A stretch of DNA of 47,079 nt from Actinomycetota bacterium (lineage in GTDB: Bacteria > Actinomycetota > Thermoleophilia > RBG-16-64-13). Positions 11,706-22,208 of the stretch are shown one piece after another. The stretch spans positions 1 through 47,079 of the forward strand of contig JAAYZX010000049.1 in NCBI GenBank assembly GCA_012514635.1. Direction: 5' to 3'. Below the pieces are notes generated by a model, which searched no databases, was not told the origin of the DNA, and worked only from the letters and a program-made list of their open reading frames with translations. The stretch's first letter is position 1; every line of letters begins with the position of its first letter. Both the position numbers and the translations under genes were made by a program.

Positions 11706-12027
11706 TTACGCCGTCGGCGCCTCTCCATTGCGGCAGCATCCGGTGCTCGCATAACGCGCATCTCGGGTTACGAGGTATCCCCCCCAATCGGCTTGGCGGG
11801 CAGCTTCCGCTTCGGAGGCACCCTGCAGCGAGTCAAGCAAACTACGCACGCCCCCACTACCGCGGCTCAGAACATGGGTGTAGATCATGGTGATGCGCAC
11901 GTCTTTGTGACCTAGGAGTTCTTGGATGGTGCGGATGTCGTATCCCGCCTCCAGCATGTGGGTGGCGAAGAAATGCCGGAAGGTGTGGCAACCCACGTGT
12001 TTGGTGATGCCTGCTCGGCCGGCCGAT
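11706..12027 (-). pseudogene. Truncated second integron integrase (C-terminal fragment)
   Basis: The last third of a second integron-type tyrosine recombinase. [20 protein letters not shown] and [16 protein letters not shown] then [11 protein letters not shown] match the intact integrase at 21234-22208 almost residue for residue, including the His-x-x-Arg, the second His and the nucleophile Tyr. Homology starts abruptly near 12027 with no N-terminus. The tail after DSLQ differs from the intact copy. It marks an older or duplicated integron platform at the left of the array. Confidence 0.88.
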
Positions 12028-14001: not shown

Positions 14002-14033
14002 GACTTCATCTCGTGCGCGAGCTGTGCCGCTGC

Positions 14034-14137
14034 CTGGCACATGGATCAGCTGCGCCGTGCGCAGCTGATTGAAGATAGACGGTCCTGCCGGCACCTACAA
14101 GTCTACTGCGCGCCATCAGCTGATCCGGTTGTTGGGC
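14034..14137 (-). repeat. attC10, partly degenerate
   Basis: R'' is GTTGGGC on the plus strand (14131-14137) and equals the first seven bases of its cassette on the minus strand. Imperfect inverted arms GGATCAGCTG-A-TGGCGCGC and GCGCACGGCGCAGCTGATCC flank a loop. The R' core at the left end is not a good match to GTTRRRY. Confidence 0.5.
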
Positions 14138-14510
14138 GGCGGGAAAGCCCGCCAGTGCACGTTCGAACACGGCTCGCCGCGTCGTCTTGTGCCGCAGGAA
14201 CTCGTCGTGGCTGTCGACTGGTTCCACCGAGAGCGCGACCGCAACCGGCGTGCTCGGCTTGACCCTCTCATCTGTCAGCACCATCGCTCCGTTCGCCGCG
14301 AGCTCGAGCCACACCTTGCGTGGCTCTTGAGACAGCTCCCGGGAGTAGTCGGAGAGCCGTCTTCGCACCTCAGCGAGGTCCATGGCGAAGCGAAAGCAAG
14401 AGGCGGACCACTCCAAACGCCGCAGGTGGTAGTCCAACAGGAAATAGCCGCCCGGCGGTTACCAGAGGAGGGCCTCGTAGAGTACGAAATCCTGGCTCAT
14501 CGCTTCCACT
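14138..14510 (-). pseudogene. PabC-domain fragment carried as an integron cassette
   Basis: Encodes part of an aminodeoxychorismate lyase (aminotransferase class IV) domain of the type fused to PabB: SQDFVLYEALLW, a TAA stop at 14461-14459, then GGYFLLDYHLRRLEWSASCF ... FLRHKTTRRAVFERALAG. The protein ends where the attC10 site begins, so the downstream half of the domain was never included or was lost. A shorter open frame from ATG 14383 remains. It cannot be an active lyase, because the C-terminal half of the PLP site is missing. Confidence 0.7.
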
Positions 14511-14539
14511 CGCATCGCGTCGCCGAACCCCCTACGTCC

Positions 14540-14599
14540 GCCCAACGCGTTCGTGGATAACCCGCGAGCGCAGCGAGTCGGGTTATCCACTGGTTAGGC
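14540..14599 (-). repeat. attC9
   Basis: A 60-base site. Left core is GCCCAAC (14540-14546) and right core is GTTAGGC (14593-14599). Between them the arms GTGGATAACCCG and CGGGTTATCCAC form a perfect 12-base stem around a short loop. It ends the kinase cassette, whose stop codon is 8 bases away. Confidence 0.85.
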
Positions 14600-14606
14600 C
14601 CACCCG

Positions 14607-15791
14607 TCAGAACGGAATCTCATCATCCGGGAGTAGGCAGTATCTCTCAATCGCGTCGAGCCGAGTGTACAGGTTTGCAATGATGATACGGCGCTTCTCG
14701 GGTGACGCGCTCTTGATTATCTGGAGGAAGGCCTTCACGGCAGCGACTTGTAGCCCCTTCTTCTTGTAGCGATACGCGCCCCGGACGAAGCAGCTGATAA
14801 CAGTGGCGGAGTCCGGCACGAACTCCTCAAGCATGAAGCCGCGGTATGCGTCGTCCACGGCTGCAATCGCCTTGCCCAAGTCCTCCTGGTACTTGGTGTT
14901 GTTCTCAATCCTCGAGAGACAGGCCTCTAGTTGGTCAGCGAACCACCGATATGATGCGGTCTCGTCTTCCGTGAAGGCAATCTCGAAGAACCGGTCGCTC
15001 TCGAGGTGCCGCTGAATCTCCGAGAATGTGGCAACCCGGTCTGCGAGGTCACGCTGGCACATTCGCTCCAGCATTGCGGTGTACTTGAACTGGCCGAGGC
15101 CGTTGTCCCGAATGATGCGCTCGAACAGCTTCCCGACGAAGTAGACCTCAGTTGAGAAGTTGTAGACGTCGCTAGAGAAGTCCACGGGTGGGTCACACCA
15201 CCAATTCAGGCTCACGCTCTTCTCGAAGTCCTCTGGCTTCTCGATTGCCTTTCCGAATCCGAAGTCTATGATCTTCACGACGTCGTCTGCCCCCACGAGC
15301 ACGTTCTGGGGTCGGATGTCCCTGTGCAAGATGCCATTGGCTTCAAGGTGGCCGAAGCCAGCGACTGCCTGCAGGAACACCTCGTTGACCCTCTCAGGAT
15401 TCGTGGCAAGGTAGCCCTCCACATCCGAGCCGTTGATGAACTCCATCAAGATGTAGCCCGAGAAGCGGTCGGGATACAGGTAGTAGTTGAACACCCGCAC
15501 AACGTTCTCGTGATAGAGACGGTGCAGCATCTTGACTTCACGGACGAAGTTCTGATACAGGTCTGGTCGTCGATTCTCGTCGTAGGGGCTGTACTTCTTG
15601 CAGACGAACTGCTCGTTAATCAGGTCATCGCGCAGGAGTACGGTCCGGCCGCACGCCCCTTGTCCGAGCTCCCGGACGAAGACGTAGTCACGCCGGCGAA
15701 TGAACGGTAATATGTCGCCTTGTTCTGGCGCAGCCCCTCCAGTCGTGGTTGGATTTCGAGATTTGGCGTCTTGGCCGCGCCCGTCGTCCAT
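14607..15791 (-). CDS. Hanks-type serine/threonine protein kinase in an integron cassette
   Basis: A 394-aa cytoplasmic kinase. The glycine-rich loop is ELGQGACGRTVLL (residues 41-53), the ATP-binding lysine lies in FVCKKY (65/66), the catalytic loop is ILHRDIRPQNVLV (HRD 156-158) and the metal site is KIIDFGFGK (DFG 176-178). Arg replaces the usual Lys two residues after the catalytic Asp (HRDIRPQN). About 150 residues of helical C-terminal region have no known domain, and there is no membrane segment. At 1.2 kb it is the longest gene in the array. No promoter or good ribosome site is visible before ATG 15791, and a later start is possible. Confidence 0.88.
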   Translation of the reverse strand: MDDGRGQDAKSRNPTTTGGAAPEQGDILPFIRRRDYVFVRELGQGACGRTVLLRDDLINEQFVCKKYSPYDENRRPDLYQNFVREVKMLHRLYHENVVRVFNYYLYPDRFSGYILMEFINGSDVEGYLATNPERVNEVFLQAVAGFGHLEANGILHRDIRPQNVLVGADDVVKIIDFGFGKAIEKPEDFEKSVSLNWWCDPPVDFSSDVYNFSTEVYFVGKLFERIIRDNGLGQFKYTAMLERMCQRDLADRVATFSEIQRHLESDRFFEIAFTEDETASYRWFADQLEACLSRIENNTKYQEDLGKAIAAVDDAYRGFMLEEFVPDSATVISCFVRGAYRYKKKGLQVAAVKAFLQIIKSASPEKRRIIIANLYTRLDAIERYCLLPDDEIPF

Positions 15792-15844
15792 GGTACTCCA
15801 TGCATCGGGCGACGCCGGATGTCAGCTGCAGACGCTGGTTAGAG
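15792..15844 (-). repeat. attC8, degenerate
   Basis: R'' is GTTAGAG on the plus strand (15838-15844), one base different from the start of its cassette (GTTAGAA at 16136-16142 on the minus strand). Short complementary arms follow. No R' core is recognisable before the kinase start, so the left boundary is a guess. Confidence 0.4.
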
Positions 15845-15850
15845 GTTGCG

Positions 15851-16115
15851 CTACCGACCATCGAGTTCACGGAAAAACGACTTGAGCTCGGCCCTGCACT
15901 CGGTCGTCAGCAGGGAATCGGCAATGCCTTGAATCGCCCCCTCGAGTCCATAGAGCATGTGAAGGCACGCCCCGGGGTCGGCACGTCTGACGGATCCGGG
16001 CGAAGGCCTTCCGAGAGCCGATCCGAATGAGCTCCTCGGGACTATCGATTCCCGCGTTACGCAGGTTCGAGGCGAGCACCGGACCCACGTTGGGCATGTC
16101 AATCAACTCGGTCAC
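15851..16115 (-). pseudogene. TfoX C-terminal domain protein, frameshifted
   Basis: A stand-alone TfoX_C-like helix-hairpin domain. The first part from GTG 16115 (GGGGG upstream) reads TELIDMPNVGPVLASNLRNA, GIDSPEELIRIGSRKAFARI. A one-base shift near 15995 then leads to RADPGACLHMLYGLEGAIQG and ends AELKSFFRELDGR. Joined, it is a complete domain of about 88 residues. TfoX proteins regulate competence in proteobacteria, but single C-terminal domains occur widely with unknown roles. The cores on both sides show it was a normal cassette. Confidence 0.78.
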
Positions 16116-16135
16116 GATTCCCCCTAGGCGCGTAC

Positions 16136-16213
16136 TTCTAACGCCCAAGATCACCCGCCAACGGCACGCAGCCAAGCTGCGGGATGGCGGTCGGCCGCAG
16201 CGAATTGTTGGGC
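16136..16213 (-). repeat. attC7
   Basis: Left core TTCTAAC (16136-16142), right core GTTGGGC (16207-16213), 78 bases. The arms CCGCCATCCCGCAGC and GCTGCGTGCCGTTGGCGG pair around a TTG loop, with unpaired bases on one side as in known attC hairpins. It ends the NYN cassette. Confidence 0.8.
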
Positions 16214-16219
16214 ATTAAG

Positions 16220-16786
16220 CTAAATTGGCTGAACAACTCGACCGTCCTTGATGAAGGAAATTTGGTTGTAATGCTTATCCAGTGACACAAACTCGCCATG
16301 ATCCTCCGCGAATTGGCGAAGCCGTCGGTGACAGGAGTGCTCCCAACTTATTAGGCGCAGCTTCCAGCCTTGACTAATAAAACCTTCGCAGTCGTATAAG
16401 AAGCCTTCCTCGTTTTCGTAACCTTTGCCATCACCAGTTGCAAGTATTAGAATGCCGGGATCGTCCTTGTATTTACGAACGTGCCTGTACATACATAGCT
16501 GAATTCTATGGTCTACTGTCTCTTGCTCGCCAGCACCCGAGCGCTCAAGAAGTTGAGGGTTGATGGCCATTTCTTCACGTAGGTACTTCCACACACTATC
16601 GTCAGGTGGAGGGATGCTTCCAGCCCAAATTACCTCATCAGGCGCTGAGCCACCAAGGCAGAGTTTGACGAAGTTTGGGAAGTAAATACGAAACCCGGAA
16701 CGCTCCTCGCCAGCGGTAGCTGCTGCGTAGCGCTGGCCTTCTACAAATATATTTGAGTTATCTACATAAAAGCATGTTCTTGTCAT
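16220..16786 (-). CDS. NYN-domain (PIN-like) nuclease
   Basis: A 188-aa NYN/PIN-like protein, predicted metal-dependent RNase. Asp residues of the site are seen in TCFYVDNSNIF, QETVDHRIQLCM and ILILATGDGKG. The start ATG 16786 has AAAGGAG seven bases upstream, immediately inside the R' core of the cassette boundary. The gene is visibly richer in A and T than its neighbours, which fits a different origin. It has no promoter of its own in the cassette. Small NYN proteins can act as toxins or defence nucleases; the role here is unknown. Confidence 0.85.
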   Translation of the reverse strand: MTRTCFYVDNSNIFVEGQRYAAATAGEERSGFRIYFPNFVKLCLGGSAPDEVIWAGSIPPPDDSVWKYLREEMAINPQLLERSGAGEQETVDHRIQLCMYRHVRKYKDDPGILILATGDGKGYENEEGFLYDCEGFISQGWKLRLISWEHSCHRRLRQFAEDHGEFVSLDKHYNQISFIKDGRVVQPI

Positions 16787-16801
16787 ATGCTCTCCTTTGG
16801 C

Positions 16802-16873
16802 GCCTAACGTGAAAACTCAGCCGCCGCGAGATCGCGCAGCGGTTGAGCAGTCGGCTGGAGTGCCTTGTTCGAC
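16802..16873 (-). repeat. attC6
   Basis: Left core GCCTAAC (16802-16808), right core GTTCGAC (16867-16873), 72 bases. Arms CTCAGCCGCCGC and GCAGTCGGCTGGAG pair imperfectly. GTTCGAC is the exact start of its own cassette (17333-17327 on the minus strand), a non-consensus core kept at both ends. Confidence 0.85.
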
Positions 16874-17317
16874 GAATCTTTCCATGAGTTCGAATGAAAT
16901 ACCATGTTCGCGAAAAATGGGGTGTTCTGGTGCCTGACCCGGAGCGGTTTGAAATCCAAGCATTCTGAAGAACTCACCAGACGTATTGCGGGCGATGGTA
17001 TGAATACGTTCGCAGTTCTTGGTTTTGGCGATACGGTAGAATTCCGTGACAAGACTGCGGCCGATACCGTGCCCTTGGGCATGAGACGCGACGGCCAGAT
17101 GCCGGAGCTCAATTTCCGTACCTCCAGTCCATACAGCAACCAGTCCTCCGACCACTTGTCCATTTTCTTGAGCAAGCAACTCGAATTCCTCGCCTTCCAA
17201 GCTGAGTGTGTGGCGTATATCGCGCGGCAGGCCCAAGGGTTGCCACAGAACTACCCAAAGGAGTTCATCCAGCTTAGCGGCAGCATCGGCTGTCGTTACG
17301 GTCTTTACTGTCGCCAT
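16817..17317 (-). CDS. GNAT-family N-acetyltransferase
   Basis: A 166-aa GNAT acetyltransferase. IELRHLAVASHAQGHGIGRS is the core strand plus the acetyl-CoA-binding Q-x-x-G-x-G loop. ARNTSGEFFRMLGFQ is the C-terminal motif B. The substrate cannot be told. The last 19 residues or so (FVEQGTPADCSTAARSRGG) are encoded by the attC6 site itself, because the frame runs through it, so the tail is not part of the enzyme fold. ATG 17317 lies 10 bases inside the cassette boundary with only a weak ribosome site. Confidence 0.85.
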   Translation of the reverse strand: MATVKTVTTADAAAKLDELLWVVLWQPLGLPRDIRHTLSLEGEEFELLAQENGQVVGGLVAVWTGGTEIELRHLAVASHAQGHGIGRSLVTEFYRIAKTKNCERIHTIARNTSGEFFRMLGFQTAPGQAPEHPIFREHGISFELMERFVEQGTPADCSTAARSRGG

Positions 17318-17326
17318 GCTTTTCTC

Positions 17327-17387
17327 GTCGAACGACTCACCCGGTCAGCGGGGGCCGACGGCTGTCCGCCGCAACGGCTTGTTAGCG
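17327..17387 (-). repeat. attC5
   Basis: Left core GTCGAAC (17327-17333), right core GTTAGCG (17381-17387), 61 bases. Inner arms GGTCAGCGGGGGCCGACGGC and GCCGCAACGGC pair in part. About 70 percent identical to attC2, so these two sites are related. Ends the MazEF cassette. Confidence 0.75.
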
Positions 17388-17395
17388 GCCGACAA

Positions 17396-17731
17396 TCAGT
17401 ACACACACGCGTCCAGAATCGCCAGCACTTCTTCGAGCACCGGCTCGGGCGCGGGACCGATGCGTTTGACACCTCGAACCCGGTAATCGAGCGACTTCAC
17501 CTGCTCCACCATCACCACTCCGGTCACTTCCAGCCCTTCGGGAACAGATACGTGAAAGGGATAGTCTCGGCGGGTGTTCGTCACCGGGCAGACGATGCAC
17601 AGACCGGTTGCCTTGTTGAAGAGATCGTTGCTGACGACAAGCGCGGGACGGCGGCCTTTCTGTTCATGACCCGACTGCGGGTCGAAGTCCACCGCGATGA
17701 AGTCTCCTTTGCGGGGAACGTAGGCCGCCAC
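17396..17731 (-). CDS. mazF: MazF-family mRNA interferase toxin
   Basis: A 111-aa PemK/MazF toxin: YVPRKGDFIAVDFDPQSGHE then QKGRRPALVVSNDLFN, and later VCPVTNTRRDYPFHV. The Arg and Thr-Asn-Thr positions are those of the RNA-cleaving site. It follows the AbrB-type antitoxin directly (ATG 17731, stop of the antitoxin at 17732). Its stop lies 8 bases from the attC5 core. With its partner and a promoter it makes a self-sufficient addiction cassette, common in sedentary chromosomal integrons. Confidence 0.93.
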   Translation of the reverse strand: MAAYVPRKGDFIAVDFDPQSGHEQKGRRPALVVSNDLFNKATGLCIVCPVTNTRRDYPFHVSVPEGLEVTGVVMVEQVKSLDYRVRGVKRIGPAPEPVLEEVLAILDACVY

Positions 17732-17980
17732 CTACCAGACCTCGCGGCCTGTAGGCGCACCCCAGTCAATTTCTCCCGGCCGATAGTCCTCGGGTACACG
17801 TGCTACCAGATCCTCCAAACTCCGCCCACCGCGTACACGATGGGCAGGCGTGACTATGAGCGAACCTCCCTGGACACTCACATGGACCGGGTCGCCGACT
17901 TCCATGTGAACATCCGCGAGCAGTTCCTTGCTAAGCCGCAACCCTTGGCTGTTGCCCCATTTCTGGATCTTCGTGATCAT
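17732..17980 (-). CDS. mazE: MazE-like AbrB-fold antitoxin
   Basis: An 82-aa antitoxin with an N-terminal SpoVT/AbrB swapped-hairpin domain (MITKIQKWGNSQGLRLSKEL, then VGDPVHVSVQGGSLIVTP) and an acidic C-terminal tail that should bind MazF. Start ATG 17980 has AAGGGCGG upstream. A strong promoter lies just upstream inside the cassette, so the pair does not need a promoter from attI. It would be autoregulated, as is usual for MazE. Confidence 0.9.
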   Translation of the reverse strand: MITKIQKWGNSQGLRLSKELLADVHMEVGDPVHVSVQGGSLIVTPAHRVRGGRSLEDLVARVPEDYRPGEIDWGAPTGREVW

Positions 17981-18006
17981 ACGCCGCCCTTAGTTTGGAT
18001 AGCCGA

Positions 18007-18035
18007 AGTATACCCCCAAAGAGGGCACCGGTCAA
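18007..18035 (-). promoter_or_regulatory. Promoter of the mazEF cassette
   Basis: TTGACC (-35, 18035-18030) and TATACT (-10, 18012-18007) with a 17-base spacer, on the minus strand. It lies wholly inside the cassette, between the R' core at 18050 and the mazE ribosome site. Confidence 0.8.
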
Positions 18036-18049
18036 CACGGGGCTGTGAC

Positions 18050-18136
18050 GCCTAACGCCTCAGCGCGTCAGCCGCGGCCGATGCGCCCTCTACATAACAC
18101 GGCGCTCGCGCCGTCGGCTCGATGCGCTTGTTGGGC
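18050..18136 (-). repeat. attC4
   Basis: Left core GCCTAAC (18050-18056), right core GTTGGGC (18130-18136), 87 bases. The long arms AGCGCGTCAGCCGCGGCC and its partner around 18100-18127 pair well. One arm has an extra G (ATCGAGCCG against GTCAGCCG), like the extrahelical base that sets strand choice in attC folding. The cleanest site in the array. Confidence 0.9.
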
Positions 18137-18140
18137 AGTG

Positions 18141-18554
18141 CTATTTCTGCCGAGCGACCAGCAGCATGACGAGAGCTCCTGCGAGCCCAACGAGTATGGA
18201 TGGCACGATCAAGAACGCAAGTATCAATGCGAGGGCGCTGCTACCTAAGTCAACTGCGGTAGCAATGGGTTCCGCAACGTGACCTCCGGTGAGCGAGACG
18301 TCGATCGCGATGAGAATCCCGACCATGATCGCGCTCAGGCCAAACGCGATGACGGACAGCACGAAGAAGCGCTTCATCGATTGCCAATGGTGAACGAAGG
18401 CCGTCACGAGCATTGTGCCCGCGAGTACAGCGAGGGCGAGGCCCGGGGGATTGTCGTCTACACCGACCAGAACGGCACCCGCAGCTGAAGCGGCCGCAAG
18501 TACCATCAGGATCAGACTGACCCTCCGATACGGAGACCTGAACAACTTGAACAT
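18141..18554 (-). CDS. Small integral membrane protein in an integron cassette
   Basis: A 137-aa protein with four predicted membrane helices: SLILMVLAAASAAGAVLVGV, LALAVLAGTMLVTAFVHHW, FFVLSVIAFGLSAIMVGILI and LALILAFLIVPSILVGLAGA. A basic N-terminus (MFKLFRSPYRR) should face the cytoplasm. No family is recognised. The cassette has exact matching cores at both ends (GTTGGGC), so it is probably a recent, complete unit. No promoter is evident in the 90 bases before its start. Confidence 0.8.
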   Translation of the reverse strand: MFKLFRSPYRRVSLILMVLAAASAAGAVLVGVDDNPPGLALAVLAGTMLVTAFVHHWQSMKRFFVLSVIAFGLSAIMVGILIAIDVSLTGGHVAEPIATAVDLGSSALALILAFLIVPSILVGLAGALVMLLVARQK

Positions 18555-18642
18555 CGGTCCTCCCCGAGCCCCGCCATTCCAGGGACGACATCACTGAACC
18601 GGGAGCGTGACCAGTCCCCGCTTCAGGACTCCCGTCGCATCT

Positions 18643-18729
18643 GCCCAACGTTCAGCCAATGAGCTGCGCCGACTGCGGCTGGAGAGTACACCACGCTCCC
18701 TGGGCGCCTGCTCGATTCGCCTGTCAGCA
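18643..18729 (-). repeat. attC3
   Basis: Left core GCCCAAC (18643-18649), right core GTCAGCA (18723-18729), 87 bases. Arms GAGCTGCGCC and GGCGCCTGCTC pair. The right core departs from GTTRRRY at one base, in the same way as attC2, and matches the start of its own cassette (GTTAGCA) at six of seven bases. Confidence 0.7.
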
Positions 18730-18736
18730 CCTGACC

Positions 18737-19024
18737 TCAACCGGCGACCTTGAGTGGCCGGACGGCCTGCGTTGGCCGACTGCGCGCGAGGTCGTGTGCC
18801 GCCTGCAGGTTGAGCCAGTACTCAGGCGTGGTGTTGAGCGCCTGGGCCAGCAGCCAGGCGGTCTCGGGCGTGACGCCGCGCTTGCCGCGCACGAGCTCGT
18901 TGACGCGCTGCACGGGCACGCCGAGGTGCGCCGCCAAGGCGACCTGCGAGGTGCCCAGCGGAGCGAGGAACTCTTGCGCGAGGATCACGCCGGGATGGGT
19001 GGGGATGCGGTTCTCGGGGATCAC
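18737..19024 (-). CDS. higA: HigA-type antitoxin (second HigBA cassette)
   Basis: A 95-aa XRE-family HigA antitoxin: HPGVILAQEFLAPLGTSQVA then LAAHLGVPVQRVNELVRGKR, a helix-turn-helix, followed by TPETAWLLAQALNTTPEYWL. It follows higB by 13 bases, the toxin-first order usual for HigBA. It would bind the palindrome between -35 and -10 upstream of higB. The stop codon is 8 bases from the attC3 core. Confidence 0.92.
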   Translation of the reverse strand: MIPENRIPTHPGVILAQEFLAPLGTSQVALAAHLGVPVQRVNELVRGKRGVTPETAWLLAQALNTTPEYWLNLQAAHDLARSRPTQAVRPLKVAG

Positions 19025-19037
19025 GGTGTGCCTCCCT

Positions 19038-19328
19038 TCAGTGGTAGTCGGTCAGGCGCACGTCGTAGGCGTCGTTGCCCTGCCAGCGGAAGACAAGCCG
19101 CCACTGGGCGTTGACGCGCATCGCGTGCAGACCCTTCATGTCGCCTTTCAGCGCCTCGAGCCGGTTGCCCGCCGGCGAGCGCAGGTCGAGCATCGAGGCG
19201 GCGCCGTTGAGTGAGTCGAGCTTCACCAGGGCCGCCTCCACCACGTCGCCCGGGAAGCGCCGCGCCCGCGCCGTGGGCCGGCCGTGATAGAGGTCTTCGG
19301 TCGCGCGGTCCCCGAACGATGCGATCAT
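19038..19328 (-). CDS. higB: HigB-type RelE-fold toxin (second HigBA cassette)
   Basis: A 96-aa HigB/RelE ribosome-dependent mRNase: MIASFGDRATEDLYHGRPTA, DLRSPAGNRLEALKGD and WRLVFRWQGNDAYDVRLTDY. The ATG at 19328 is 7 bases after the -10 box, so the message should be leaderless or nearly so. It is similar to the HigB of the neighbouring cassette (both end DYH), but the DNA differs, so the pairs are not a recent duplication. Confidence 0.93.
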   Translation of the reverse strand: MIASFGDRATEDLYHGRPTARARRFPGDVVEAALVKLDSLNGAASMLDLRSPAGNRLEALKGDMKGLHAMRVNAQWRLVFRWQGNDAYDVRLTDYH

Positions 19329-19334
19329 GCTAAG

Positions 19335-19363
19335 AGTGTACCGCTTACACGGTTACCGTGCAA
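19335..19363 (-). promoter_or_regulatory. Promoter and operator of the second HigBA cassette
   Basis: TTGCAC (-35, 19363-19358), 17-base spacer, TACACT (-10, 19340-19335). The arms TTGCACGGT and ACCGTGTAA, one base apart, form a 19-base palindrome with one mismatch that starts in the -35 box and fills the spacer. This is the place where HigA repressors bind. Confidence 0.8.
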
Positions 19364-19391
19364 GAGTGACAATCGCGGCTCGGGGGAGTGG

Positions 19392-19453
19392 TGCTAACGT
19401 CTCAGCCGGTCAGCGGCGGCCATCAGGCTGTCGGCTGCAACGGCGTGTCAGCT
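19392..19453 (-). repeat. attC2
   Basis: Left core TGCTAAC (19392-19398), right core GTCAGCT (19447-19453), 62 bases, with arms CAGCCGGTCAGCGGCGG and GGCTGTCGGCTGCAAC. The right core differs by one base from the start of its own cassette (GTTAGCT). Similar to attC5. Confidence 0.7.
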
Positions 19454-19455
19454 TT

Positions 19456-19767
19456 CTAACGTCGCACCGCCACGGCATGACCACGGATCTCGTGATCAAG
19501 ACGCTCCCCTAGCTCATCCTCGGCAACGTTTAGGTCATAGTCGGCCTGGAGGCCGAGCCAGAACTGCGGGGTCGTATCGAAGTACCGCGCCAGACGCAAC
19601 GCCGTCTCGGCAGTCACACGGCGCTTGCCCAAGACGATCTCGTTTATGCGCCTCGGCGGTACGCTGATGTTCAAGGCCAGCCTGTTCTGGCTCAGGCCCA
19701 GGGGCTTGAGAAACTCCTCCAGTAGCACCTCACCGGGATGTACCGGCGCAAGCTTCTTGGTCGTCAT
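19456..19767 (-). CDS. higA: HigA-type antitoxin (first HigBA cassette)
   Basis: A 103-aa HigA antitoxin: MTTKKLAPVHPGEVLLEEFL, helix-turn-helix LSQNRLALNISVPPRRINEI, then TAETALRLARYFDTTPQFWL. Start ATG 19767 has AGGAGG upstream; a longer frame to 19830 overlaps higB and has no ribosome site. It follows its toxin gene by 14 bases. It probably represses the promoter at 20071-20099. Confidence 0.92.
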   Translation of the reverse strand: MTTKKLAPVHPGEVLLEEFLKPLGLSQNRLALNISVPPRRINEIVLGKRRVTAETALRLARYFDTTPQFWLGLQADYDLNVAEDELGERLDHEIRGHAVAVRR

Positions 19768-19781
19768 GACAGGCCTCCTTT

Positions 19782-20063
19782 CTAGTGATAGTCCACGATC
19801 TCTACGTCGTACGCGTTTCCGTCTTGCCAACCGAAGCAGATTCGATACTGATCGTTGACACGGATACTGTATTGACCCTCTCGAGCCCCCGAGAGCTTCT
19901 CGAGCCTATTGGCCGGTGGGCTGCGAAGGTCGTTGATGGCATGTGCGTTACTGACCATCCGCAGTTTTCGCAAAGCCACAGATTGGATGTCGCCGGCCAG
20001 CTTCCGAGAGAACTCCCGATTAAACACCTTCTCGATTTCAGCATCAGCAAACGACTTGATCAT
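19782..20063 (-). CDS. higB: HigB-type RelE-fold toxin (first HigBA cassette)
   Basis: A 93-aa HigB toxin: MIKSFADAEIEKVFNREFSR, DLRSPPANRLEKLSG, YSIRVNDQYRICFGWQDGNA, ending DVEIVDYH. The start at 20063 gives the family's standard MIKSF N-terminus. It lies 7 bases after the -10 box, so translation is expected from a leaderless message. The longer frame upstream would run through the promoter. Confidence 0.93.
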   Translation of the reverse strand: MIKSFADAEIEKVFNREFSRKLAGDIQSVALRKLRMVSNAHAINDLRSPPANRLEKLSGAREGQYSIRVNDQYRICFGWQDGNAYDVEIVDYH

Positions 20064-20070
20064 TAGCCAC

Positions 20071-20099
20071 ATAGTATGACGCGTCGCATCATACGTCAA
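20071..20099 (-). promoter_or_regulatory. Promoter and operator of the first HigBA cassette
   Basis: TTGACG (-35, 20099-20094), 17-base spacer, TACTAT (-10, 20076-20071). The arms TATGATGCG and CGCGTCATA, one base apart, make a 19-base palindrome (20075-20093) with one mismatch that fills the spacer. Same architecture as the other HigBA cassette, with a different palindrome sequence. Confidence 0.82.
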
Positions 20100-20108
20100 C
20101 CGTTATGA

Positions 20109-20208
20109 AGCTAACGATTCAGCCGGTCAGCAGCGGCGCGCCAGCAAGCACTTGCCACCCGAGTCTACCGTACGAGACGCGCCGTCTGTGTGGAAGCGCG
20201 GGTTAGGC
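20109..20208 (-). repeat. attC1
   Basis: Left core AGCTAAC (20109-20115), right core GTTAGGC (20202-20208), 100 bases. Arms CAGCAGCGGCGCG and CGCGCCGTCTGTG pair imperfectly. The stop codon of the first cassette gene lies inside the right core, and the right core is identical to the cassette's first seven bases. Confidence 0.8.
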
Positions 20209-21027
20209 CGGCTCCGTGGCGGATGCGTCTGCTTCCTCGTTCTTTGCTCGTGAGGTGTCAGTGAACTTACGCAGGCCGTCTTTGACCATCACGGCGACTA
20301 CGCGACCGAGCGGCGTGGGCTCGTATGCCGGTTGACCATCCTCGAACTGTCCGACCGCACGAATTAGCTGCTTGTCGAGAAGGCGAGGTATCGAGGCCAT
20401 GCCGAAGAAGTCGACGGTTCCCTTGCTGATTCGTCCGAAGACCGTCCCCGGTGCCCACTCAGCGATCTGTCGCAGCATGACTACTTCGTCGTTGCTGATG
20501 CCCGCAAGGGCGAGTTCGACGCGCGCGTCCTGGACCAGCTGACGCTCCCTCAATCGTGCGAGTAGCGCTTCCTGCAGCGCCGGGACAGCTGAGGCTGGAT
20601 TCGTGAAGTCGATCTTCATGTGAGGGATCGAACTCACGTCGAAGAGGAAACGATCCTCGTCGTCCCTGACGAGTAGTACTTCGCTGGAATGCCGACACGC
20701 CAGAGCTATCCCAACCTCATACATGACGTTGCCGTTGCGATAGGCCACGCCAGTAACGGAGTCTTTGCCCACACTGGACACATCCGCCAGCACAATCTGC
20801 GAGTGGGCGATTCCGTCAACGATGTCCGTAAGAATCGAGTCGCCGCTCTTGGACAAGTCCACGCGAAATGCTGAGAGCGGTTGATCACCGACTGTGATAC
20901 CTCTGACTGCAGGTGCGATGACGTTGTCGAAGCGCCCCTGGTACTGAGGTGCGAAGCTCATAGCCACAAACACCTGTGGGCGCAGTTCCAAGCGCCAGAA
21001 CGTCTTCAAGAACGCTTGTGGATGCAT
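20203..21027 (-). CDS. TIR-like / nucleoside-deoxyribosyltransferase-like protein, first cassette
   Basis: A 274-aa protein. Residues 15-175 form a Rossmann-like nucleotide-binding domain: QVFVAMSFAPQYQGRFDNVI, AHSQIVLADVSSV, GNVMYEVGIALACRHSSEVL (probable catalytic Glu in MYEVG). This pattern is shared by TIR-like and nucleoside 2-deoxyribosyltransferase-like proteins. Residues 180-255 look like a winged helix (VMLRQIAEWAPGTVFGRIS ... YEPTPLGRVVAVMV). The start ATG 21027 follows GGGGGAGGGGC. As the first cassette it is nearest attI and probably the latest gained. NAD+-consuming defence is one possible role, unproven. Confidence 0.7.
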   Translation of the reverse strand: MHPQAFLKTFWRLELRPQVFVAMSFAPQYQGRFDNVIAPAVRGITVGDQPLSAFRVDLSKSGDSILTDIVDGIAHSQIVLADVSSVGKDSVTGVAYRNGNVMYEVGIALACRHSSEVLLVRDDEDRFLFDVSSIPHMKIDFTNPASAVPALQEALLARLRERQLVQDARVELALAGISNDEVVMLRQIAEWAPGTVFGRISKGTVDFFGMASIPRLLDKQLIRAVGQFEDGQPAYEPTPLGRVVAVMVKDGLRKFTDTSRAKNEEADASATEPA

Positions 21028-21064
21028 GCCCCTCCCCCGGTATCCGTTTCGATGCTCGTGCTCG

Positions 21065-21233
21065 GCCTAACAACAATTATCCAGTCTGTGTAACTCCGAT
21101 AGACGGCTCCCGGGTGTCTGTGTAACAACGCCGACACCACCCACGAAGACCGCTGGAAGACCGCGCCCATAGCGGGATGGTCGCTCCCCGCTCCGCTCAT
21201 CGTACCGCAATTAGCCAGACTGTATAAGCCGCT
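21065..21233 (-). other. attI-like site with three integrase-type repeats
   Basis: The region between the integrase stop and the first cassette. It ends in a perfect core GTTAGGC on the minus strand (21071-21065). Upstream on the minus strand are GTTACACAGAC at 21094-21084 and again at 21126-21116, 32 bases apart. A longer related copy at 21208-21227 matches 21074-21093 at 17 of 20 bases. attI sites of known integrons hold a core plus two direct integrase-binding repeats, which is what is seen here. No attC-type hairpin is present. Confidence 0.75.
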
Positions 21234-22208
21234 CTAGGTCAGGTCGAGTGGACTGCGGACGCCCTGCCCTCCCCTGTTCAAGACATGGGTGTAGATCATG
21301 GTGGTGCGCACGTCTTTGTGACCTAGGAGTTCTTGGATGGTGCGGATGTCGTATCCCGCCTCCAGCAGGTGGGTGGCGAAGGAATGCCGGAAGGTGTGGC
21401 AGCCCACGTGTTTGGTGATGCTTGCTCTACTCACGGCCTCTTTCACTGCCCGCTGGACCATGGTTTCATGGATATGATGCCAGCCCTCTTGCCCCGTCTT
21501 CGCATTCTTCCAGCGGTTGGCCTGGGGAAAGACCCACTGCCGGCGCCGGTCGCCAGGTGCGTTTGGGTACTTGCGATCGAGGGCGTAAGGCAGCATGACC
21601 CGGCCCCAGCCGTCAGCCAGGTCTCGCTCGTGAGTGTTCCGTACCGAGCGCAAGTGCTCTTGCAGAGGCCTCACGAGCGATCCTGGCAACATCGTCATGC
21701 GGTTCTTGCCGCCCTTGCCATCATGCACCGTGATTTTGCAGCGGGAGAAATCCACATCCTTGATTCGAAGGCGAAGGCATTCCAGCAACCGCAACCCAGA
21801 ACCGTACAGTACAGACGCAATCAGCCATTTGTCGCCCTCAAGCTGGTCCAAGACGTCTCGTACCTCGGCACGTGTCATCACTACCGGCACCGTCGTGGTG
21901 TGCCTCGCTCGGATGACCCCTTTCAGATCGCCGACATCCCTCACAAGTACCTGCCTGTACAGGAAGAGCAGTGCGGCAAGCGCCTGATTCTGGGTGGAGG
22001 CGCTGACATTCTCACGTACCGCGAGATGAGTGAGAAAGGCGTTGATCTCGGGCTCACCCATGTCCGCGGGGTGGCGCAGATGGTGGAAGTAGATGAAACG
22101 CTTCACCCAGAGACAGTACGCGCGTTCGAGGCGCAGACTGTAGTGGCGGGCGTAAAGCGCCTCGCGCATCTGATCGAGGAGTCTGGGCGGTCGATCCATC
22201 CGGGCCAC
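21234..22208 (-). CDS. intI: Integron integrase
   Basis: A 324-aa tyrosine recombinase. The N-terminal SAM-like core-binding domain spans residues 1-100. Catalytic residues are Arg140 (GSGLRLLE), Lys in KGGKNR, His271-x-x-Arg274 (CHTFRHS), His297 (LLGH) and Tyr306 (TTMIYTHV). Residues 201-230 ([20 protein letters not shown], then WVFPQ) are the extra segment found only in integron integrases, where it grips the folded attC. The C-terminus VRSPLDLT also matches them. Start is GTG 22208, or ATG 22199. The 3' end faces attI and the cassettes, so it reads in the cassette direction. No LexA box was seen upstream. Confidence 0.95.

Follow-up and report, generated by a model that had tools for sequence, protein, structure and literature searches.

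An inverted-type integron in a member of the anaerobic Actinomycetota, a thinly documented host phylum

Integrons whose integrase gene and cassettes share one reading direction are already known: inverted integrases (IntIs) form a described sub-clade among those of soil and freshwater (PMC8352920), and in Treponema denticola intI is transcribed toward attI, in the same sense as the cassettes (PMC3607928). A 2022 survey of RefSeq genomes with IntegronFinder 2.0 reported no complete integron in Actinobacteria; the near absence from this group and from Firmicutes was called intriguing, and incompatibility with the genetic background was suggested (PMC9024848). A 2021 review lists Actinobacteriota among the phyla with integrons, without detail (PMC8618304), and in the open-licence literature we found no description of a complete integron from Actinomycetota. 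The locus described here lies in a window of 47,079 nucleotides (the whole stretch of DNA analysed). Like the T. denticola type of inverted chromosomal integron, it has an intI directed toward attI and cassettes in the same sense, but its host belongs to the Actinomycetota and its array is short, at about ten cassettes. With class 1 mobile integrons and proteobacterial chromosomal integrons it shares the IntI family, an attI ending in GTTAGGC, and attC sites with R''/L''/L'/R' boxes; in those systems, by contrast, the integrase gene points away from the cassettes, and IntI1 is about 51% identical to the window IntI. Coriobacteriaceae bacterium EMTCatB1 and the MAGs L041, L050, and L054, which belong to other classes of the phylum and carry different cassettes, share this layout and have attCs of a closely similar type. 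Both EMTCatB1 and the window have 87-nt attC sites beginning GCCYAACAAGCGCATC, and we found no published description of the integrons in EMTCatB1 or the three MAGs. We consider it very probable that the integron in the window is sedentary and chromosomal, belongs to the known inverted type and is native to an anaerobic lineage of Actinomycetota, a reading that draws on the integrase, attI, the attC sites, the same-sense cassettes, the host phylum and recurrence in relatives. Its features are as follows.

21234-22208, minus strand: intI, integron integrase, 324 aa, GTG start (TIGR02249, catalytic motifs, tree)
21065-21093, minus strand: attI core, ending in GTTAGGC, conserved downstream of IntI in relatives
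20109-21064, minus strand: cassette 1, ORF 20203-21027 (274 aa, unknown family); attC 20208-20109 (arm scan 34.8)
19392-20108, minus strand: cassette 2, HigB toxin and HigA antitoxin (PF05015, TIGR02607); attC 19453-19392 (R2)
18643-19391, minus strand: cassette 3, second HigBA pair (profile matches); attC 18729-18643 (R2)
18050-18642, minus strand: cassette 4, 137-aa hydrophobic membrane-like protein (18554-18141); attC 18136-18050 (R2, fold)
17327-18049, minus strand: cassette 5, MazE and MazF (PF02452, E 9.7e-29); attC 17387-17327 (R2)
16802-17326, minus strand: cassette 6, GNAT acetyltransferase (PF00583); attC 16873-16802 (R2, R1)
16136-16801, minus strand: cassette 7, 188-aa protein, NYN-like by eye, without a Pfam match; attC 16213-16136 (arm scan)
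15851-16135, minus strand: cassette 8, frameshifted TfoX_C-domain gene (PF04994), attC lost
14540-15791, minus strand: cassette 9, protein kinase (14607-15791; PF00069, E 1.3e-29); attC 14599-14540 (R2)
14032-14539, minus strand: cassette 10, broken aminotransferase class IV (pabC-like) fragment (PF01063, weak); degenerate attC 14137-14032
11841-12016, minus strand: second, truncated intI copy (90.3% nucleotide identity over 176 nt; TIGR02249, 108.8 bits)

The original prediction of an integron integrase carrying the IntI-specific segment is borne out by profile search. The ORF at 22208-21234 scores 469.5 bits (E 5.5e-141) against TIGR02249, the curated cut-off of which is 265 bits; the match includes the extra segment, and the score far exceeds those that the same ORF obtains with the XerC and XerD models. 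In a quick tree of 103 IntIs, with branch support by SH-aLRT only and rooted on two Xer proteins from the same genome, the window protein nests within IntI, the placement that had been anticipated, rather than with XerC/D. Its nearest neighbours are integrases of its own family (L012/L039, L014, and L079; SH-aLRT 90); own-family IntIs are 74-76% identical to it, and those of other phyla less so. It belongs to a clade of 51 rows (support 98, starred; inner branches less well supported) that also holds IntIs of Treponema/Spirochaetota, Planctomycetota, Chlorobiota, and some cyanobacteria, and thus spans many phyla.

On the 3' side of the IntI stop codon stands the element AGTTACACAGACTGGATAATTGTTGTTAGGC (21095-21065), and the same element follows the IntI stop codon in many relatives. 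A search pattern based largely on an Omnitrophota relative (L040) has a single match in the window, at 21093-21065, and none in 100 shuffles, so the attI-like region expected behind the integrase is present. Candidates were identified in 19 loci, the window included, of which 12 reach 20 of 31 positions, a level never attained by shuffled sequences. Partial repeats related to attI occur at 21228-21211 and 21129-21114. A sigma-70 promoter scan near intI and attI found none, and no LexA-like box was seen.

Nine attC-like sites, all on the minus strand, follow cassette ORFs. Eight are well formed (those listed for cassettes 1 to 7 and 9), and one, at 14137-14032, is degenerate, with a decayed R' and an arm-scan score of 31.4-31.7; at the boundary of cassettes 8 and 9 the attC is lost, and an R''/L'' remnant near 15843 is all that can be read from the sequence. 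The claim that every cassette ends in an attC-like site therefore holds for the eight, holds in degenerate form for cassette 10, and fails for cassette 8. A strict R''/R' motif search recovered three array sites along with some chance pairs, and because it fell short, scans with degenerate cores and covariance models were used. The arm scan, derived from the arms of known attCs (class 1 cassettes, Gemmatirosa, and one Omnitrophota array), reaches 33 or more at four places, all at cassette ends, against 0.08 expected per shuffled window; attC 7 (16213-16136) scores 29.3. The covariance model R2 was trained on 20 attCs from same-class and other Actinomycetota loci, all well formed and lying 3' of their IntI, with no window sequence among them, and its training pairs covary (0.229, vs 0.097 when shuffled and at most 0.088 in slid versions). 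Because known attCs seeded the scan from which the training sites were chosen, a match to R2 measures relatedness to known attCs and not an unseeded signal. Across the whole 2.34-Mb genome at E<=1, all five of its matches fall within this array, on the minus strand and at cassette ends: 18136-18050 (49.2 bits), 14599-14540 (33.4), 19453-19392 (33.3), 18729-18643 (26.8), and 16873-16802 (26.7). Weaker scores were obtained at 17387-17327 (17.3 bits) and 16213-16136 (10.5 bits). The 49.2 bits at 18136-18050, obtained with filters on, drop to 14.3 with filters off, probably because the site exceeds the length allowed by the unfiltered search. At E<=0.001, R2 has no match in 8 of 18 family genomes, which serves as a specificity control. 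A weak second model, R1, built from known attCs outside Actinomycetota, has array sites as its best four matches (E 0.008 to 2.9), and gives 20.6 bits to 16873-16802 and 10.1 bits to attC 7, which is thus weak in both models. The covariance check proposed for the minus strand, carried out in substance with R1 and R2, thus locates attC sites at cassette ends. Folding as single-stranded DNA gives z scores of -4.3 for 18136-18050 and -2.6 for 14137-14032; folding energy alone separates just three of the nine sites from shuffles, and is mostly uninformative in GC-rich DNA. At the gathering threshold Rfam gave no attC match, its sole match being RNase P.

The array comprises nine to ten cassettes, in agreement with the approximately ten first estimated, and all of them read in the direction of intI. 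By one published rule of thumb a long array has more than ten attC sites, and this one, with eight to nine, falls short of it. The cassette 1 protein has no Pfam match, and a structure prediction made for it without relatives (mean pLDDT 34.6) was useless; its attC has a similar counterpart in EMTCatB1. The kinase of cassette 9 matches the PADLOC mad6 and PD-T4-6 defence kinase models.

The attCs, cassette ORFs and intI all lie on the minus strand, which confirms the same-sense (inverse) layout of the original prediction; the accompanying claim of rarity needs correction for this sub-clade. Within the 51-row clade, attCs lie 3' of IntI in 24 of the 25 loci with high-scoring attCs (44 sites vs 1, although about twice as much 5' as 3' sequence was searched), and outside it both layouts occur. 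The inverse layout is thus the rule in the IntI clade of the window, and is already described; the shared sense, together with placement in the tree alongside Treponema and Planctomycetota, assigns the window integrase to the inverted-IntI sub-clade. In other Actinomycetota families, IntIs outside the 51-row clade (L154, L156, L157, L159, L162, and L164) also have their attCs on the 3' side, and this second actinobacterial group suggests that the inverse layout may predate the clade.

In operation, intI is transcribed toward attI, and its product would recombine the folded bottom strand of an incoming attC with attI at G^TTAGGC, which would place each new cassette immediately behind the integrase gene and in the same orientation. 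Given this shared direction, transcripts from the intI promoter could extend into the first cassettes, and the toxin-antitoxin cassettes may stabilise the array; recombination, read-through and stabilisation are the parts of the explanation that we infer.

A variant of this explanation, which does not exclude it, is that the integrase no longer recognises attC and the integron is a frozen relic, which we regard as possible but on balance doubtful. The window IntI carries three substitutions, T27L, W223R, and R243W, at alignment positions with 99-100% invariance among approximately 100 other IntIs; T27L affects the N-terminal part, and the other two the IntI-specific region, which in IntI structures contacts the extrahelical bases of attC. 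Substitutions at such near-invariant positions cast doubt on the activity of this integrase, and a frozen state would also fit the broken IntI copy nearby, the frameshifts and truncations among the farthest cassettes, the degenerate R'' of attC 2 and 3, and the pseudogene integrases of the family member G004. Against it, the frame is open, the catalytic motifs are intact, and the attC of the first cassette is well formed. Moreover, comparison with L012 and L014 (dN 0.18, dS 1.6-1.8) gives a dN/dS of about 0.1, which points to long purifying selection on intI. Judging by these comparisons, the integrase was functional over long times, and may now be impaired, although we lean toward its being intact; the older cassettes at the far end of the array are decaying.

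Returning to the sedentary integron as the preferred reading, its placement in the Actinomycetota could in principle reflect an integron contig binned into the wrong genome, as the assembly comprises 129 contigs and many phyla are represented in the wider IntI clade. This is very unlikely. Of this 47-kb contig, 23 kb are taken up by genes of the Wood-Ljungdahl pathway and housekeeping genes, including acsB, acsD, acsV, ftfL, fchA, folD, RNase PH, and RNase P RNA, core genes which also make the location chromosomal; among plasmid records, none has an IntI more than 58% identical to that of the window. acsB is present in 12 of 18 family genomes (that of the window and 11 further ones), in one case as a partial gene at a contig edge. 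In one family member (G002), the acs genes and the integron are on different contigs (C17 and C30), and this genome therefore lends no support to a conserved neighbourhood of the two. Among 399 class genomes, 13 encode an IntI above the cut-off, as do 16 of 397 phylum genomes; attCs were detected in 10 of 18 family genomes (R2, E<=0.001), and several members of the family and the class have close IntIs with same-type attCs, including arrays of several attCs in the same arrangement. Named Actinomycetota records contain sequences identical to the loci of two same-family genomes (G011 and G012) and one same-class genome (G044); the G044 record carries the genus name Bog-752, and the Actinobacteriota genera Bog-752 and RBG-16-64-13 have been listed jointly among active peatland methylotrophs, in a paper that does not spell out which genus falls in which phylum (PMC10805028). 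G004, with 19 attCs at E<=0.001, has integron parts of this kind, its integrases decayed, on a single 4.6-Mb contig, and EMTCatB1, a member of the Coriobacteriia that shares the phylum but not the class of the host, has its integron on a 1.8-Mb scaffold. Recurrence of integrases or attCs across family, class and phylum renders contamination unlikely, and the host is an anaerobic member of the Actinomycetota, matching in substance the Gram-positive host with a Wood-Ljungdahl pathway that had been predicted. G004 also has twelve attC matches on one strand at C1:1195204-1229996, with no IntI match nearby.

That the locus is instead a defence or toxin-antitoxin island with an Xer-like recombinase and chance palindromes, as the company of toxin-antitoxin pairs, a kinase and an Avs4-like gene might suggest, is extremely improbable, since the integrase is an IntI by family score and tree, and the palindromes fit attC models, end cassettes and lie on one strand only.

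Several observations concern the DNA beyond the array. A DUF433 and DUF5615 pair at 13484-12889 (minus strand), past the last attC, is toxin-antitoxin-like by look. Behind the truncated intI, which the original prediction did not mention, TAATGGTTGTTGGAC (11708-11694) resembles the last part of attI, and the pair may be what is left of a duplicated integron platform. An older cassette behind the truncated intI, ending at 10480-10415, was set aside, its attC being supported by no model. Further on, a 1743-aa Avs4-like STAND NTPase (9631-4400, minus strand; PADLOC PDLC02169, E 1.1e-141) is preceded by an SDH-type serine protease (11396-10491) and a DEDDh exonuclease (10393-9815), and the three probably constitute a defence island outside the integron. 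Adjacent ORFs at 3690-3106 and 3090-2587 (minus strand) correspond to the first and second halves of the candidate defence family PDC-S11, either through a frame break that splits a single gene or through an error in the assembly.

The machinery described here is known, and its host phylum is thinly documented. The proposed extension of host range is upheld insofar as no complete integron was known in Actinobacteria in 2022, such that the window integron extends the documented hosts of an established system, and is tempered by earlier mention of integron parts there. A complete actinobacterial integron, together with the recurrence of IntI and attC in class, phylum and family, argues against a general incompatibility. 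It is possible, though somewhat less likely than not, that anaerobic Actinomycetota harbour a long-resident integron lineage of their own, with a shared attI and attC type, and that the reported absence reflects the sampling of mainly cultured aerobes rather than genetic incompatibility. Actinobacterial integrons add a little-known pool of cassettes.
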